From Romeriopsis navalis LEGE 11480 (lineage in GTDB: Bacteria; Cyanobacteriota; Cyanobacteriia; Leptolyngbyales; Leptolyngbyaceae): a stretch of DNA of 33,372 nucleotides. The notes under the pieces were generated by a model. The model did not search any database. It saw only the letters and a program-made list of their open reading frames with translations, and was not told the DNA's origin. This document shows positions 5,117-13,737 of this stretch, in pieces. The stretch is taken from positions 1-33,372 of the forward strand of contig NZ_JADEXQ010000069.1 of assembly GCF_015207035.1 (NCBI RefSeq), written 5' to 3'. How positions within the stretch are numbered: the first letter of the stretch is position 1; the number at the start of each line of letters is the position of its first letter. A program made the translations under genes and the position numbers.

Positions 5117-5142
5117 CCCAGCGAACCTTCGCTGGGTTTTTT
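5117..5142 (+). terminator. Rho-independent terminator after the small membrane protein gene
   Basis: CCCAGCGAA (5117-5125) and TTCGCTGGG (5128-5136) form a perfect 9-bp inverted repeat followed at once by TTTTTT. Confidence 0.9.
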
Positions 5143-5305
5143 ATTGTCGATCGGTATTCCCGTTAGGAAGAGTGAAGAAAGCAGTTAGGATAGTGCGAGG
5201 CAATCTTGCCAGAGAATTATCAGGCAAAGTCACCGTGGGTGGGTTGTTGGCGATTTCTTTGCGCGTGTTTGTTTATCCATGTTGTCTTTTTAGTTTTTTA
5301 TTTTT

Positions 5306-6427
5306 ATGTCTCCAACTCCTATGACCGTTGCGATTATTGCGGGAACCCGGCCCGAGGCAATTAAGATGGCGCCGGTAATCCAGGCGTTTCAGCGAGCACC
5401 GCAGTTTCAGCCGATCGTCATTTTGACCGGGCAGCATCGGGAAATGGTGGATCAAGTCATGGATTTCTTTAAGTTGAAAGCTGATTATGACCTCAAAATC
5501 ATGCAGCCAAAGCAAACTCTGACGGACATTACCAATCTTGCTTTGCGTGGCTTAGAAGAATTATTCATCCAGCTAAAACCCCAGATGGTTTTGGTTCAAG
5601 GGGATACAACGACCGCGTTTGCCGCGGGTTTAGCGGCATTTTATCAGCAAATTCCTGTGGGTCATGTGGAAGCGGGCTTACGCACCTCCGACATTTACAA
5701 TCCCTTCCCGGAAGAAGCCAATCGTCGATTGATTTCGCAGATTGCCCATTTACACTTTGCGCCAACGGCGTTGTCGGCTGAGAATGTGCAGAAATCCGGG
5801 GTCGTGGGCGAAATTCATCAAACGGGTAATACCGTGATTGACGCACTGTTAGCGGTGGCTGATAGCAATCCTCCCTGTGATGTTCCGGGATTGAATTGGG
5901 ATCAGCACCGGGTGATTCTTTCGACCGTGCATCGTCGGGAAAACTGGGGCGAACCTCTCAACGACATTGCCCATGGCTTCCGACGGATTTTGGATCACCA
6001 TCAGGATACGGCGCTGCTATTGCCGATGCACCGTAATCCCACGGTGCGTGAACCGTTGAAAGCGATTTTGGGTGAGCATCCCCGCGTATTTTTAGTCGAA
6101 CCGCTAGATTACACATCATTAATTGGGGCGATGAAGCGTTGCCATTTGTTGATGACTGATTCTGGTGGGATCCAGGAAGAAGCGCCATCTCTGGGTAAAC
6201 CCGTGTTGGTGTTGCGTGAAACAACGGAGCGACCTGAGGCGATGATGGCGGGTACCGCCAAGTTAATTGGCACGGAAACGCAGCGGATGTTTGAAGAAGC
6301 CGATCGATTGTTGACTGATCCGGCGGCCTACGGTGAAATGGCTAATGCGGCGAGTCCGTTTGGTGATGGTACGGCGTCGGATCAGATTGTCGCGCTGGTT
6401 GAGAAGTATCTCTCAAAGTCTCTTTGA
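5306..6427 (+). CDS. wecB: UDP-N-acetylglucosamine 2-epimerase (non-hydrolysing)
   Basis: It interconverts UDP-GlcNAc and UDP-ManNAc, the precursor of ManNAc-containing surface polysaccharides. The protein is 373 residues, normal for the family. Family signatures seen in order: GTRPEAIKMAPV at the N-terminus, QGDTTTAFAAGLAAF, VGHVEAGLRT, STVHRRENWG, and TDSGGIQEEAPSLGKPVLVLR with TERPE near the end, which together form the UDP-binding GT-B-like fold. ATG 5306 was chosen; ATG 5321 is an alternative that would remove five residues. No polysaccharide gene is adjacent, so it stands alone with its own terminator (6471). The symbol mnaA would be equally valid. Confidence 0.95.
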   Translation: MSPTPMTVAIIAGTRPEAIKMAPVIQAFQRAPQFQPIVILTGQHREMVDQVMDFFKLKADYDLKIMQPKQTLTDITNLALRGLEELFIQLKPQMVLVQGDTTTAFAAGLAAFYQQIPVGHVEAGLRTSDIYNPFPEEANRRLISQIAHLHFAPTALSAENVQKSGVVGEIHQTGNTVIDALLAVADSNPPCDVPGLNWDQHRVILSTVHRRENWGEPLNDIAHGFRRILDHHQDTALLLPMHRNPTVREPLKAILGEHPRVFLVEPLDYTSLIGAMKRCHLLMTDSGGIQEEAPSLGKPVLVLRETTERPEAMMAGTAKLIGTETQRMFEEADRLLTDPAAYGEMANAASPFGDGTASDQIVALVEKYLSKSL

Positions 6428-7806: not shown

Positions 7807-8136
7807 TTATTCCGCATCCGCCATCAACGATTTCTCGATGGAAAAGCGCTGTTCGGCATTGCGCAGGAAATAGCCGCTCATCATGGCCGAAGCGAGAAGT
7901 TGACCAAGGGACTCACGGTTTGTGGTGATGCTGACATCGAAGGCTTCACTGGGCAGACCGCCGAGCAATGCCGCAATATTCTGCTCCATCACGTGAGCCA
8001 CCTCTTGGGAATCGGGCTGCGAGAGCTTTGCAACGGTCTCTGGCTGAAGTTCTTGAACATACTGCAGCAGGTTTGTGTTGCCAGATTCGCTGTGTGATGT
8101 GTTGTTTAAGAAATCGTTGGAGAGATTGTTGTTCAC
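7807..8136 (-). CDS. DUF760 family protein
   Basis: A 109-residue protein whose core (LLQYVQELQPETVAKL, then MEQNIAALLGGLPSE, then FDVSITTNRESLGQLLASAM) matches the DUF760 family, found in cyanobacteria and, as chloroplast proteins, in plants. No membrane segment or catalytic motif is visible, and the function in cyanobacteria is unknown. The GTG at 8136 was chosen because a GAGGGT lies about 8 nt upstream and the family N-terminus is short; a TTG at 8175 would add 13 residues. It follows the histidine kinase gene with a gap of about 115 nt, so cotranscription is uncertain. Confidence 0.85.
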   Translation of the reverse strand: MNNNLSNDFLNNTSHSESGNTNLLQYVQELQPETVAKLSQPDSQEVAHVMEQNIAALLGGLPSEAFDVSITTNRESLGQLLASAMMSGYFLRNAEQRFSIEKSLMADAE

Positions 8137-8252
8137 AAATTGACCCTCGAAATATTTTAAGTCTGATCCAACCAATTTGCTTGGATGAACCTACTGTAAC
8201 AACTTGGTTGAGGCGTTGGCAGTGGGCAGAACCGTACTAAAAATGCGGGAAC

Positions 8253-9794
8253 CTACGCTAATCCTATGGGTAATTCAATTGCGAATTGGCAGCCGTCGGG
8301 TGGGTTTGACTGGCAGCCGATCGTGCCACCATGTAACTCCGTAATCACTTGATAGCTGATCGATAGACCTAAGCCGGTGCCTTGACCAACGGGTTTTGTC
8401 GTGAAAAATGGATCAAAGATCCGCTGGCTCACGTTGTTTGTAATGCCTGGCCCATTATCTTGAATGGTGACTTTGATCCGCTTGTCGCTGATTTGTTCAG
8501 TGTGAATGTGAATCTCACCGGCATAAGGTTGGTCGTTACTGGCACATTTGCGTTCGATTTGGTCTGCCTCAATGGCATCAATCGCATTGATCAAAAGGTT
8601 CATAAAAACCTGGTTGAGCTGTCCGCCGTAGCATTCGATCGCCGGTAATGTCGCGTATTGTTTGACGACTGTAATCACCCCACCCGCTGCCGTTTGATTC
8701 AGTCGATGTTGCAAAATTAAGAGCGTACTATCGAGGCCATCGTGAATATCTACCTGTTTCTTCTCGGCTTCATCGAGGCGGGAGAAGTTGCGCAGCGCCA
8801 GAATAATTTGGCGGATGCGCTGTGACCCCATTTTCATAGAACCAATTAATTTCGGCAGATCTTGGGTCAGAAAATCTAAATCGAGATCCTCGAGTTTTGC
8901 TTGGATCGCCTCTGGGGCTTCTGGATAGGTTGTCTGATAGCAAGTGACTAGCTCTAGCAGCTGGAGGGTGTATTCATCAACGTACTTGAGATTGCCATGG
9001 ATAAACGATATCGGATTGTTAATCTCATGGGCGACGCCCGCAACCATTTGGCCCAGGCCCGACATTTTCTCAGTTTGAACTAACTGCGCTTGGGTTTGTT
9101 TTAACTGTCCGAGGGTGTACTTTAGGCGCTGATTTTTTTGATTGAGAATGGCTTTATTGATTTCTAACGCCACATTCTGCTCATGGACTTCCACTAATTT
9201 CTCCGATAGCAGTTGCTCGGATGCCCGCAGTGAGAGTTCTGTTTGTTGGCGACGTTGATTTTCTTGAATCGAGCGTTGATGCGCGAGGCAGGCAGCGATC
9301 GACGATGCAAAGCAATCGACGATGCTGAGTAATTTCGTCATCTCAATCGATGAAAAAGCAGGACTGGAAGCGGAGGAATAAAGCTTCAAATAGCCGATAT
9401 CTTTCAAGCGAAAAATCGTGAATGCTCCTTGCTGAATTTTCTTTTCGATAATGCAAGATGCAAATGCTTCGGGCTCGACCGCATGGTTAACAACATAGAC
9501 GGGTGCGGTGGCGGATAGGGGCTGAAAACTGGGATGCGTCAGGGATAACTGGCTTTCGCCAATCCACAGTCGTGGGCTGGCATAGACTAAGGTGAGGTGC
9601 TGTTCGGGAATCGCTGTGTCTTCTGTGACTAAGTTTTCGCGCAGCCAAACGCTGACATATTTGAGATTTTTGCGGGCCATCAAAAGCTTCAAAAATCGCG
9701 CACAATTTTCCTTGAGATCTAAGCTACGGCCGATCGATAGGGACAATTCGTATAGCAGTGTCAGATCCTGAACTGTGCGATCAACGTTATACAT
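8253..9794 (-). CDS. Sensor histidine kinase, GAF-like sensor domain plus HisKA/HATPase
   Basis: A soluble kinase of 513 residues from ATG 9794 (a TTG at 9812 would add 6). The N-terminal ~175 residues look like a GAF-type sensory domain, followed by a coiled-coil linker (~180-245). The phosphoacceptor His256 sits in GVAHEINNPISF. The ATP domain has the N box (NLLINAIDAIE), G1 (DNGPGI) and G2 (GQGTGLGLSIS). There are no transmembrane segments and no receiver domain. The gene starts 45 nt after the FIST gene on the same strand. FIST proteins often pair with kinases, so the FIST protein is the likely ligand sensor for this kinase. No response regulator is encoded nearby. Confidence 0.93.
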   Translation of the reverse strand: MYNVDRTVQDLTLLYELSLSIGRSLDLKENCARFLKLLMARKNLKYVSVWLRENLVTEDTAIPEQHLTLVYASPRLWIGESQLSLTHPSFQPLSATAPVYVVNHAVEPEAFASCIIEKKIQQGAFTIFRLKDIGYLKLYSSASSPAFSSIEMTKLLSIVDCFASSIAACLAHQRSIQENQRRQQTELSLRASEQLLSEKLVEVHEQNVALEINKAILNQKNQRLKYTLGQLKQTQAQLVQTEKMSGLGQMVAGVAHEINNPISFIHGNLKYVDEYTLQLLELVTCYQTTYPEAPEAIQAKLEDLDLDFLTQDLPKLIGSMKMGSQRIRQIILALRNFSRLDEAEKKQVDIHDGLDSTLLILQHRLNQTAAGGVITVVKQYATLPAIECYGGQLNQVFMNLLINAIDAIEADQIERKCASNDQPYAGEIHIHTEQISDKRIKVTIQDNGPGITNNVSQRIFDPFFTTKPVGQGTGLGLSISYQVITELHGGTIGCQSNPPDGCQFAIELPIGLA

Positions 9795-9839
9795 AGAACC
9801 AAAGAGAGCCAAGGAAATTTGGTAGAGCGAGATGCGGGA

Positions 9840-10979
9840 TTAGCTGGAATACATGGCCGCGACGACGATCGTTTTATTGAAAAATTCCAAATACCCTTCG
9901 CCATAGGAGGAAATTTCCCCAAGCGTCAGGATGCCGACGGGGAGAATACAGCAGGATTCCGATTGAATGCCCACTTGAATGGCTTGGAGTTCTTGGCTGA
10001 ACTGATCTTCTAAAAACAACACCCGAGAAATGCAGTCAACAACAAAGATATTTTGAATCTGCGCAACGCTGGCGGTTGCTGCCTGAGCAGCCTGACGGGC
10101 GGCGGCGATTAAAGCGGTGGAGTCCCCCTTCAAAATGTAGAGTGAGGCATTCTCCGGGACTTCACCGACGCAGATCAGATGGCCCGCTTCATTCACGACG
10201 ATCGGATCGCGCACGACGTCCTCTTGACCTTCTTTCAGCAACCCAAAGGGATAGCCCTTGGCAACATCGAAGAAATTATCGGCATTGATTCTAGTGCTGG
10301 CATCGTCTTGCACCACTTCACGGTAGAGGTCAAATGCGGATTGCCAGTTCAGTTCCTTGATGATGTTGTTCTGGGTGCTGGTCGAAATGATTGGTCCTTT
10401 GATCCGTTCCCAACCGTGCTTTACCCCGAGATGGCTTTCCCAATTAATAAAGCTGACGATCGCCGCATCTTGAAAGATGCCGCTGTTGCTGAAAACACAG
10501 GGTTGTTGGGTTAACGATAAGGAGCCAGCCCCGCCCCCCAAATAGTGGACCTCGTTGCCCATGTAGTCATACATTTCCGATAGCAACAGGCCAATATTGC
10601 TGGTTAAGCCATCGACTAATAAGAACGTGGTGACTTGTTTGTCGATCGTTGCTAACTCAGAAAATTCGGGTAGTTCAATTGGGGCTTGATCAAGCCCATG
10701 AATTACATAGGGTTTTCCCAGTGTTGGCATCGCCATGATTACGGCCCCATCCGTTGATTTTGTATGGCCCGAAATCACGGCTGGGAAAATGCCGCCGATA
10801 AACTGAATTTGCTTGGTATTTAACTGCTGGAGTAATGGCTCAAGTTCCAGGGAGTGGTGTTCTCCCAGGAACATGAATATCGTGTGGCTTGACTTCGCTT
10901 GAGATATGGTTTGGCCGAGTTTCTGTGCGGCTGTGACAATCGCGGTGGGTGTCGGGTGATCGAGATAAATTGGGCTCAT
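9840..10979 (-). CDS. FIST domain signal-sensing protein (FIST N plus FIST C)
   Basis: The 379-residue protein has the layout of FIST proteins: an N-terminal domain (GGIFPAVISGHTKSTDGAVI, LVDGL, YLGGGAGSLSL) and a C-terminal domain (FDVAKGYPFGLL, then FVVDCISRVLFLEDQF, then VGILTLGEISSYGEG). The family is predicted to bind small ligands such as amino acids and relay to kinases or cyclases. ATG 10979 was chosen; the open frame extends to 11132, but only into the end of the upstream dehydrogenase gene. No signal peptide is present, so the protein is cytoplasmic. It lies 40 nt after the Fe-type dehydrogenase and 45 nt before the histidine kinase, consistent with one transcript. Confidence 0.88.
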   Translation of the reverse strand: MSPIYLDHPTPTAIVTAAQKLGQTISQAKSSHTIFMFLGEHHSLELEPLLQQLNTKQIQFIGGIFPAVISGHTKSTDGAVIMAMPTLGKPYVIHGLDQAPIELPEFSELATIDKQVTTFLLVDGLTSNIGLLLSEMYDYMGNEVHYLGGGAGSLSLTQQPCVFSNSGIFQDAAIVSFINWESHLGVKHGWERIKGPIISTSTQNNIIKELNWQSAFDLYREVVQDDASTRINADNFFDVAKGYPFGLLKEGQEDVVRDPIVVNEAGHLICVGEVPENASLYILKGDSTALIAAARQAAQAATASVAQIQNIFVVDCISRVLFLEDQFSQELQAIQVGIQSESCCILPVGILTLGEISSYGEGYLEFFNKTIVVAAMYSS

Positions 10980-11019
10980 GGGACCGGGCGCGATGGTGAA
11001 GATTTTGAGAAAAGCTGGC

Positions 11020-12231
11020 TTAAAGTCGGGTTTCGAGGATTGTTTGTAGCTCCGATCGCTGCAGTTGGATGGGATTATTGCGATTTTTAGTTTGAGCCAG
11101 AATGCGATCGCTGTCGCCGCGAGTGACACCATAAGTGCTCAAGCGGGGAATTTCTAGCTGTGTAGTCCAATGCGTCAACACCGCACAGAAATACTGGCCA
11201 TCCTCCTCGGGGATAGTACTGTCCGGTACATCGGTGAGCGCTTGTTGTTGACGGAGCAATTGGCCCAGCCGTTGCATTTTGACAATGCCCGGATTGCGGG
11301 GTTCACGGGTTTGCATCGCTTGCCAAGTGGTTTGCATAGCGGCGCCCATGAGCGTGCCACAGACGACACCATGGGGAATGGGAAACAGGCCGCCTAATGG
11401 CGAGGCAAAGCCATGTACGACACCTAATCCAGCATTGACGAGGGCAATGCCCGACATCAAAGAGCCGTACGCCATACCCGCCCGTACATCCAAGTTAGCC
11501 TGGCCCGGGCCACAGGCAAGGAGTAAGTTGGGGGTAATGCTTTCAATCCCACTCCAGGCGATCGCATCGCTGAGTGGGGATGCCGTTGGCGATAGATAGG
11601 CTTCAATTAACTGGGTCAGCGCATCCATGCCACAGGCGGCGGTGATCGCTGCCGGACAGCGCACGAGTAGCTCACTGTCAACGATAATCGCATCGGGGAC
11701 TAACTTCGGATGGCGAATTGATTTCTTGTAGCCATTGTTGCCAACTTCGCTGATCACGGCATTCTGAGTCACTTCGCTGCCCGTGCCCGAGGTGGTGGGC
11801 ATGGCGATGTAGGGAATTTTTTGGCCACTATGGGGAATCCCGGCCCCAACGCCTTCGAGATGATCGACGATTGAATTTTTATGCGGCAGCATGGCTGAAA
11901 TCGCTTTGCCTGCATCCACGACGCTACCGCCACCGATGCCAATCACAACATCAATTGCCTGATCCCGATAGGTGCGGCAAGTTTGATCGATGAATGCGGG
12001 TGACGGTTCGCTAGTACAGTTAACGATCGCCGTAGTAATTCCGGCGGTGTTTAGCTGCTGATCAATCAGGTTGAGCCAGCCGCCGGTTTGGAGTGAGCGG
12101 CCACCAATGACCAGTAGTACGTTTTGGCCCTTGAACTGAGCAATTAGATCCGGGAGCACCGATCGCTGTCCTTGGCCAAAATAGAGGGGGGGAATATTGG
12201 CGAAATTGAAGGGTTTCATCCGCATCATCAC
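11020..12231 (-). CDS. Iron-containing (group III) alcohol dehydrogenase
   Basis: A 403-residue NAD(P)-dependent dehydrogenase, or ~399 from the ATG encoding residue 5. The cofactor motif GIGGGSVVDAGKA is at ~98-110 and PTTSGTGSEV follows. The metal site is Asp203 in GMDALTQLIEAY, His273 in VVHGFASPLGG and His287 in PIPHG. The second ligand, His in FucO-type enzymes, is Gln207 here, a variation I believe recurs in some subfamilies. The substrate is not inferable. Its start lies 3 nt after the stop of the ABM monooxygenase, so the two are almost certainly cotranscribed. The FIST gene begins 40 nt downstream. No clear ribosome site precedes the start, which fits translational coupling. Confidence 0.92.
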   Translation of the reverse strand: MMMRMKPFNFANIPPLYFGQGQRSVLPDLIAQFKGQNVLLVIGGRSLQTGGWLNLIDQQLNTAGITTAIVNCTSEPSPAFIDQTCRTYRDQAIDVVIGIGGGSVVDAGKAISAMLPHKNSIVDHLEGVGAGIPHSGQKIPYIAMPTTSGTGSEVTQNAVISEVGNNGYKKSIRHPKLVPDAIIVDSELLVRCPAAITAACGMDALTQLIEAYLSPTASPLSDAIAWSGIESITPNLLLACGPGQANLDVRAGMAYGSLMSGIALVNAGLGVVHGFASPLGGLFPIPHGVVCGTLMGAAMQTTWQAMQTREPRNPGIVKMQRLGQLLRQQQALTDVPDSTIPEEDGQYFCAVLTHWTTQLEIPRLSTYGVTRGDSDRILAQTKNRNNPIQLQRSELQTILETRL

Positions 12232-12234
12232 AGC

Positions 12235-12525
12235 TTAAGGAGCGATTACAGTATAGGGTTTGCCTTCCCGTGGTTTGGCCATCCAAGGTGCGACCGTCTC
12301 ACGCCATATTTTGTAATGTGCTGTTTGCTTATGCTGGGCGGCTCCTTCACTGTCCGCATAGGCTTCGTAGAGCACAAACTGGGTTGGCTGCTCGGGATCT
12401 TGCAAAAGGTCAAAGCGTAAATTGCTGGGTTCTTGGATCGAACCTTGGTGATTCGCGATCGTCGCTTGAATAAAATCGGCAATATGTTCGGGTAACACCG
12501 TGACATTGACACAGGTAACGACCAT
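12235..12525 (-). CDS. ABM-domain (antibiotic biosynthesis monooxygenase / quinol monooxygenase-like) protein
   Basis: A 96-residue single-domain protein of the dimeric alpha-beta-barrel ABM family (YgiN/LsrG-like). Typical features are VVTCVNVTVLPEHIADFI at the start, FDLLQDPEQPTQFVLYEAY with its conserved E/Y segment, and HKQTAHYKIW near the C-terminus. ATG 12525 was preferred over 12543 because GAGGAGG precedes it by 5 nt, the best Shine-Dalgarno of this operon. It is the first gene of a proposed unit ABM, Fe-dehydrogenase, FIST and histidine kinase. The substrate, quinol or an aldehyde-like metabolite, is unknown. Confidence 0.88.
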   Translation of the reverse strand: MVVTCVNVTVLPEHIADFIQATIANHQGSIQEPSNLRFDLLQDPEQPTQFVLYEAYADSEGAAQHKQTAHYKIWRETVAPWMAKPREGKPYTVIAP

Positions 12526-12628: not shown

Positions 12629-12673
12629 GGCAAAAAATGCGGGGAATGCATGACTCACGCATTCCCCGCATTT
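12629..12673 (-). terminator. Terminator of the sigma factor gene
   Basis: On the minus strand a 15-bp perfect stem (12659-12673 with 12635-12649), a 9-nt loop and then TTTTTTG end the transcript from the sigma gene. It also insulates the ABM operon. Confidence 0.9.
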
Positions 12674-12735: not shown

Positions 12736-13707
12736 TTAGCTTGCAGCGATATAGCCAGCCATACCGGCACGGCGACGGCGGAGCTTGGTCAAGGCTTCGC
12801 GTTCGATTTGGCGCACGCGCTCACGACTCACACTCATCTGTTCGCCAATCTTCGATAGGGTCATGGGTTGACCACTGATCAGCCCAAATCGCAGGGTGAG
12901 AACTTGCTGCTGTTGTTGATTGAGGTCGGCCATTACGCTTTGAATGTCCTGCTGCATAGCCGTTTGCACTGTATATTCCTCCGGTGAAATACCGCTATCT
13001 TCAAGTAAATCGCCCAACTCCGTATCTTGGTTATCGCCCACGCGTAGATCGAGGGACAGGGGGCCCCGGCCGTGTTCGAGGTAGTTGCGGACTTGCTGTT
13101 GGGTCATGTCTAAGGCTTCGGCCAGTTCCGCTGTGCTGGCGGCGCGGCCATGGGTTTGGCTCAGTTCTCGCTGAACTTTCTTAATCTTGTTGAGTTTTTC
13201 CGTGATGTGAATGGGCAGGCGGATGGTGCGGCTCTTTTCGGCGATCGCGCGGGTAATCGCTTGGCGAATCCACCAGTAGGCATAGGTGCTAAAACGGTAG
13301 CCCTTAGTTGGATCAAACTTTTCAACGCCGCGTTGCATGCCGATCGACCCTTCCTGGATCAAGTCCATGAGGTCAACATTTCGCTTCTGATATTTCTTGG
13401 CAACGGAGACCACAAGCCGTAGATTGGCTTCCACCATCCGGCGCTTGGCCCGGGCTCCATCCGCGATCGCTTTTTCTAATTCAGCAATTGTGAGATCGGC
13501 CCGATCGGCCCATTCCGCTTTTGTCGGAACCCGTTCTAAGCCGACCATCAAAGCCTCTTTGGCAGTATTGAGACTGGCCAGACGCTGAACTTGCTTCCCG
13601 TAGAGAATCTCTTCTTCATGGGTGAGCAGTGGTACACGCCCAATTTCACGCAGGTAGAGACGGACACTATCGACGAGACTTTCAGACTTTAGGGCTTGAT
13701 TAACCAT
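12736..13707 (-). CDS. Group 2 RNA polymerase sigma-70 factor (RpoD/SigA family)
   Basis: A 323-residue non-essential-type (group 2) sigma factor, lacking the long N-terminal region of SigA. Region 1.2 ([20 protein letters not shown]) is followed by region 2 ([16 protein letters not shown], then [18 protein letters not shown], and [19 protein letters not shown] for -10 recognition). Region 3 contains [15 protein letters not shown], and region 4 ends in [22 protein letters not shown] 13707 was chosen; a TTG at 13731 would lie at or before the predicted start of transcription. Group 2 factors in cyanobacteria direct stress, carbon/nitrogen or light responses. Which of SigB-SigE this is cannot be settled by eye. 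It is monocistronic, with its own promoter and terminator. Confidence 0.95.
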
Positions 13708-13737
13708 GGATGATGCTGGGGGAAACAACAAAAGGTT

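Follow-up and report, generated by a model that had tools for sequence, protein, structure and literature searches.

Four adjacent minus-strand genes of the cyanobacterium Romeriopsis navalis LEGE 11480 encode an ABM-domain protein, an iron (Fe)-type alcohol dehydrogenase (ADH), a FIST protein and a histidine kinase. They lie in a 33,372-nucleotide (nt) stretch of contig NZ_JADEXQ010000069.1, which we refer to as the window. We consider this cluster to be real, and its sequences suggest a composite cassette that combines two gene pairs of known kinds, ABM-ADH and FIST-kinase, between which a functional link is plausible. The reading that we favour, at a probability of roughly 0.5, is that the FIST receptor senses a compound which the enzyme pair consumes or makes. 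In its favour we counted the ABM-ADH order in 14 of 14 genomes, the recurrence of FIST followed by kinase, the site of insertion, the pattern of hairpins, a parallel arrangement in another family (genome G044), the signalling neighbours of the enzyme pair and the chimeric build of the kinase. A preliminary description of this DNA had presented the four genes as a candidate for an undescribed system. Our gene-order survey, which covered Cyanobacteriota together with plasmids and two Lokiarchaeota loci, found the order ABM-ADH-FIST-kinase in none of the 13 other ABM-bearing genomes; within the sampled phylum the order is not syntenic, the outcome that the description had itself named as telling against its proposal, and a conserved four-gene system was rejected.

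The four genes and their transcription

The features of the locus, in window coordinates, are the following:
12235..12525, minus strand: LsrG-type ABM-domain protein, 96 amino acids (aa) (Pfam PF03992, NCBIfam LsrG, PDB)
11020..12225, minus strand: Fe-ADH-type protein, 401 aa, with DALTQ and VHGFAS motifs (Pfam, NCBIfam ErcA, motifs)
9840..10979, minus strand: stand-alone FIST_N-FIST_C protein, 379 aa (Pfam)
8253..9794, minus strand: apparently chimeric histidine kinase, 513 aa (HATPase_c and HisKA; N-terminus and core match different kinases)
9270..9794, minus strand: N-terminal domain of the kinase, residues about 1-175 (phmmer and profile searches, alignment)
12635..12673, minus strand: terminator-like hairpin in the interval between the sigma and ABM genes (fold; inverted repeat I2)

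The open reading frames (ORFs) and Pfam matches bear out the four genes as they were named in the preliminary description. The ABM protein matches PF03992 at 53 bits, the ADH matches PF00465 at 145 bits and PF25137 at 94 bits, and the single stand-alone FIST protein matches FIST_N (67 bits) and FIST_C (79 bits), both above the Pfam cut-offs. The kinase matches HATPase_c at 85 bits and HisKA at 26.3 bits, the latter slightly under the cut-off of 26.9. On their common strand the genes are separated by 40 nt (ADH to FIST) and 45 nt (FIST to kinase), as previously given, and by 9 nt between ABM and an ADH start at ATG 12225; the earlier figure of 3 nt holds only for a start at GTG 12231. The hairpin upstream of ABM folds at -30.1 kcal/mol (z -6.6), and folding detected no strong hairpin at the ADH/FIST (z +1.4) or FIST/kinase (z +0.4) junction. 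This pattern fits the single operon that had been proposed, and the four genes are probably transcribed together from a promoter past the upstream hairpin.

The ABM-ADH pair

In all 14 ABM-bearing cyanobacterial genomes (six families, the window's genome included), the next gene on the same strand is the ADH. Matches to the ABM profile occurred in 3 of 386, 1 of 42, 1 of 6, 8 of 349 and 4 of 200 genomes of cyanobacterial samples that overlap and in part contain the window's genome, so that these counts cannot be summed. One copy of the pair is held by the conjugative plasmid pSTA7437.01 of Stanieria cyanosphaera, which indicates that the pair moves. On this plasmid (L036, 6701-11425), the genes after ABM-ADH encode, in order, a 119-aa protein, a PAS/GAF kinase and a lone receiver; this kinase and receiver were rejected as a general rule because they are only second and third neighbours and are lacking in G562, G624 and G633 of the same family.

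The ABM protein matches the NCBIfam model LsrG (NF007791) over its whole length at 90.5 bits, under the cut-off of 135. Its best PDB match is 2omo, followed by the LsrG structures 2gff and 3qmq, and its profile matches the ArqI chains 8ecp and 8ecx at 39-40 bits. The genes that adjoin it are the sigma and Fe-ADH genes and not those of an lsr operon. For the ADH, the top NCBIfam match is ErcA (NF041833) at 190.3 bits against a cut-off of 550, and ErcA is the best or second-best match for all three ADHs scanned. All 14 ABM-linked ADHs have Gln in place of the final His of the motif that is DALTH in a related methanol dehydrogenase, and Ser or Gly in place of the later His in VHAIAH. We take these positions to be, as in FucO, a metal ligand, the first of the three His, and the active-site His; on this assignment none of the 14 has the ligand set Asp/His/His/His together with the active-site His. 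Proteins altered in this way could still be active as enzymes. The Gln variant also occurs in Lokiarchaeota ADHs and in one Haematobacter ADH and is therefore not specific to the ABM-ADH pair. The two Lokiarchaeota ADHs (L016 and L017, 6004-7191), the only matches from a single ADH scan of genome contigs, have no ABM nearby and are 48-50% identical to the window ADH, and a transfer of the ADH between distant lineages seems likely from this comparison. A further ADH homologue without ABM, in G258 (L023, 2935-4110), has degraded metal-site motifs and is perhaps no longer an enzyme.

The FIST-kinase pair

According to the preliminary description, FIST and the kinase form a sensory pairing, and the window genome fits this view. 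Among its 10 FIST matches, seven stop-free copies were examined, and in six of these a kinase gene directly follows FIST, as it does in the window; the exception, C145, is a FIST copy clipped by the contig start. The seven do not include a disrupted copy on C19, to which two of the 10 matches belong, or a fragment on C177 that lies at the edge of its contig. The disrupted copy (G000:C19, L027 7037-8150), a broken FIST gene followed by kinase fragments, looks like a decaying FIST-kinase pair. FIST followed by kinase was also found in all five plasmid relatives, where every partner has HATPase_c.

The preliminary description had also pointed out that the output regulator is missing. Indeed, three receiver queries gave no match among the window ORFs of at least 80 aa, and Pfam detected no receiver domain in the 16 scanned of the window's 29 longest non-overlapping ORFs. 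However, the other FIST-kinase pairs of this genome likewise showed no adjacent receiver gene (one pair runs off its contig), and a missing response regulator is therefore ordinary here.

The closest relatives found of the window FIST, at 31-37% identity, come from haloarchaea, Salinibacter and three cyanobacterial copies, and its placement in the FIST tree has a support of 0.38-0.52. It scores 32.3 bits against NosP (NF041558), whose cut-off is 450, and the PDB search returned only a chance-level match. NosP, ErcA and LsrG are relatives, and no curated cut-off is reached.

The kinase carries the motifs HEINNP, DNGPGI and GTGLGLS, which we take to be the catalytic motifs, and no receiver domain. 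It matches T2SS_HK (NF038348) at 242.9 bits (residues 191-516 of the scanned frame; cut-off 450). Its core (about 170-510) is 44-48% identical to the kinases C95, C39, C2 and G031, which belong to the other FIST-kinase type, and phmmer and profile searches match residues 1-175 to the N-termini of the C115, C19, G044_C312 and Salinibacter kinases. Judged from these matches, the kinase is a chimera whose N-terminus and core have two origins. All nine kinases beside the FIST subclade of the window, among them the window kinase itself, begin with this domain or, in four haloarchaeal cases, with the same LYE-I/L-SL start; these four were counted by the LYEISL-type start and the alignment, at no significant score. 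In the Halovenus plasmid kinase (L082, about 5130-5323), the frame extends upstream of the annotated start and includes such an N-terminus. Five kinases beside other FIST types were unreported in the same N-terminus searches. Because the domain co-occurs with this FIST subclade, FIST probably acts through it. Pfam assigns no family to the cyanobacterial copies and gives a sub-threshold GAF_3 match in the Salinibacter homologue only, and the domain is possibly a divergent GAF; the PDB search found no relatives, and its single-sequence model has a predicted local distance difference test (pLDDT) score of 41.

Apparent insertion of the block

The flanks of the block, in window coordinates, are the following:
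12736..13731, minus strand: sigma-70 family gene, upstream flank of the insert (Pfam; adjoins DUF760 in 6 of 20 relatives)
8176..8252, minus strand: DUF760 leader that resembles the relatives' GTTCGGTTC leader and marks the insert's downstream edge (by-eye comparison)
7807..8175, minus strand: DUF760 gene, downstream flank of the insert (Pfam)

The gene mutY was detected in 53 of 58 genomes (the window's counted), and the neighbourhoods of 20 relatives were compared. Sigma, DUF760 and mutY are contiguous in six of them, G044 and five from the window's family, with a sigma/DUF760 interval of 100-261 nt as measured between mechanically called frames. Ten others have DUF760 beside mutY but no sigma gene within the stretch, and the remaining four showed no DUF760, one of their stretches ending at a contig edge. 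In the window, the four genes occupy the sigma/DUF760 interval, and the kinase stop is followed by a leader that by eye resembles that of the relatives. The four genes therefore look like an insert, and a single insertion of the block would be the simplest account. GC content does not mark the block off, and a search for flanking repeats indicative of a mobile element gave only short, imperfect ones within the stretch covered. Elsewhere in the window, positions 3-2840 encode an AIRS/pyridine-redox protein and then a rhodanese-domain protein (Pfam), presumably a selenophosphate synthase and a tRNA selenouridine synthase.

Signalling genes beside the enzyme pair

Among the 14 ABM-bearing genomes, only the window's has both pairs joined in one direction. 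In G044, which belongs to another family, a distance of 464 nt separates ABM-ADH from a FIST-kinase-REC/GGDEF/EAL operon (REC, receiver) that runs divergently from it. The G044 ADH is 37% identical to the window ADH, and the FIST of the operon belongs to a different clade. From the FIST counts per genome and an assumed one gene per 1.05 kb, about 0.005 contacts of FIST within one gene of ABM-ADH would be expected over the 13 other genomes. The operon itself (G044:C170, L024 422-6987) is a NosP-NahK-NarR-like set in a cyanobacterium.

In the 13 other genomes, 26 genes immediately adjoin ABM-ADH, and 6 of them encode signalling proteins; among 110 genes more distant from the pair at these loci, at least 7 do (Fisher p 0.018). 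The six are the FIST of G044, PAS-GGDEF-EAL proteins (G266, G704), CHASE3 chemoreceptors (G488, G478) and a Ser/Thr kinase-GAF-SpoIIE protein (G633); the other immediate neighbours are ordinary genes or have no Pfam family. For controls we took 110 of the 111 complete frames that reach at least 100 aa and do not immediately adjoin the pair at the 13 loci; one frame of 1490 aa was dropped because of its length. Their count of seven is a lower bound (Response_reg 4, GGDEF 3, EAL 2, HATPase_c 2, with two receivers assumed to be shared with GGDEF proteins), and four of the seven belong to the neighbour operons of G044 and Stanieria, without which p is 0.012. The definition of a signalling domain was chosen after some of the neighbours were known, and we regard the excess as suggestive.

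The CHASE3 chemoreceptor genes of G488 (L054, 7111-10199) and G478 (L055, 4162-7499) immediately precede ABM-ADH on its strand, as do the PAS-GGDEF-EAL genes of G266 (L022, 7316-11030) and G704 (L058, 7574-11309). A linkage to GGDEF-EAL as a general rule was rejected, because such a gene is the immediate neighbour in G266 and G704 and not in G694 and G755.

Discussion

According to the reading that we favour, the ABM-ADH pair would convert a small carbonyl compound; the LsrG-like ABM would probably rearrange a hydroxy-ketone or dione, and the dehydrogenase would reduce or oxidise the product. FIST would be a soluble receptor for a small cytosolic ligand and would control the kinase through its N-terminal domain, and the kinase would then phosphorylate a receiver encoded elsewhere. 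Comparison with relatives places the four genes as one block between the sigma gene and DUF760-mutY. The most economical link is that FIST would monitor a substrate or product of ABM-ADH. The earlier proposal that the sensed molecule is a substrate or product of these enzymes gains some weight from G044, the signalling neighbours and the insertion of the block.

Each part of the cassette has a known counterpart. The model for the FIST-kinase mode is NosP-NahK (PMC8846402), with NarR in Legionella; there as in the window, a stand-alone FIST gene lies directly upstream of a kinase gene, and G044 also carries a NarR-like REC-GGDEF-EAL gene. However, the window FIST is distant from NosP, its kinase has an N-terminal domain of its own, no receiver gene is nearby and an enzyme pair is attached. 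In Vibrio cholerae, the FIST gene vpsV lies upstream of the gene of the cytoplasmic kinase VpsS and has been proposed to encode its sensing partner (PMC4398556); we compared this pair by its published description rather than by sequence, and the passages compared mention no enzyme pair. In the ErcA-ErcS (YiaY-YiaZ) system of Pseudomonas, a gene of the Fe-ADH family likewise shares an operon with a histidine kinase gene, and the N-terminal domains of the two proteins have been predicted to make contact (PMC12997753; also PMC7427536), but the Pseudomonas kinase is a hybrid, the window ADH comes from the ABM-linked clade, and the window block adds ABM and FIST, with FIST lying between the ADH and the kinase gene. 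A precedent for carbonyl chemistry by an ABM protein is supplied by LsrG, the phospho-AI-2 (autoinducer-2) isomerase, and by ArqI (PMC12274486). LsrG is of the same ABM subfamily, but in the window no lsr genes adjoin and the partner is an Fe-ADH; ArqI of Pseudomonas aeruginosa is an LsrG-like ABM protein encoded in a two-gene operon with the carbonyl-detoxifying enzyme GloA2, a glyoxalase instead of an Fe-ADH. In the literature searched, outside of which most subscription journals fell, we found no paper on the function of an ABM-ADH pair, on FIST together with a histidine kinase and an alcohol dehydrogenase, on FIST in cyanobacteria, or linking LsrG, Fe-ADH and autoinducer-2.

Several observations weigh against the favoured reading. 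No FIST gene is near ABM-ADH in 12 of the 14 genomes, and five of the 14 have no FIST match anywhere, so ABM-ADH does not depend on this sensor. No ABM-ADH occurs in the stretches fetched around the FIST-kinase pairs on C115 and C19, which belong to the same subclade. The number of contacts expected by chance for G044 was estimated post hoc and concerns a single case, and the neighbour excess falls to 4 of 20 against 7 of 110 (p 0.066) when near-identical contexts are merged. The comparison of flanks does not distinguish one insertion from two, and two are possible; no common motif was found upstream of ABM in six representative loci. As for the role given to the N-terminal domain of the kinase, a profile of the four cyanobacterial N-termini left the four haloarchaeal kinases unreported at E values up to 10.

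A rival reading is that a mobile ABM-ADH pair and one more of the many FIST-kinase pairs came to lie side by side, with a shared promoter and no shared function. Each pair stands alone in most genomes, the plasmid copy in Stanieria attests to mobility, and 10 FIST matches in one genome raise the odds of contact. We nevertheless hold such an accident to be rather unlikely, because four genes on one strand occupy one intergenic site, G044 offers a parallel with a different FIST clade, and signalling genes are in excess beside ABM-ADH. It is more doubtful that the Fe-ADH is itself the sensor or signal generator, as has been proposed for ErcA-ErcS, and that both ADH and FIST act as protein inputs to the kinase. 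The ranking of ErcA among the matches of the three scanned ADHs and the altered active-site motifs in all 14 would agree with this, as would a Pseudomonas putida gene cluster reported to contain both an Fe-ADH/kinase pair and a NosP-like/kinase pair (PMC12997753). However, the ErcA cut-off is missed (190 of 550 bits), the constant companion of the ADH is ABM, and among the 13 other genomes only the stretches of G044 and G486 showed HATPase_c kinases (frames running off the stretches excluded); in G633, the Ser/Thr kinase gene is convergent to ABM-ADH.

A heme or nitric oxide (NO) circuit, in which FIST would act in the manner of NosP or CdpA and heme would be handled by the ABM protein, is hardly to be expected. 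FIST-FIST_C proteins have been reported to bind NO and/or heme (PMC8846402), and certain ABM proteins degrade heme (PMC12274486), but the NosP model is matched at 32 of 450 bits, the ABM protein is of the LsrG type, the pocket of the LsrG-like ArqI is reported to be too small for heme (PMC12274486), and the Fe-ADH has no obvious place in such a circuit. By analogy with LsrG, we also entertain, as a speculative and improbable extension, that ABM-ADH makes or destroys a small AI-2-like carbonyl signal and that different lineages have placed different receivers beside it: FIST-kinase in the window, FIST-kinase-GGDEF/EAL in G044, PAS-GGDEF-EAL in G266 and G704, and a CHASE3 chemoreceptor in G488 and G478. 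The window would then hold a self-contained circuit.

Implications

The ligands of most FIST receptors remain unidentified (review PMC8846402, and as is generally held). A FIST-kinase pair tied to a two-enzyme module would offer a short list of candidate ligands, namely the substrates and products of ABM-ADH, and the conserved ABM-ADH pair is itself a testable enzyme module. The apparently chimeric build of the kinase suggests that FIST may act at the N-terminal domain. If the signal-based extension were true, one operon would both process and sense the signal, and the kinase would have been rebuilt from two sources to accept this FIST.

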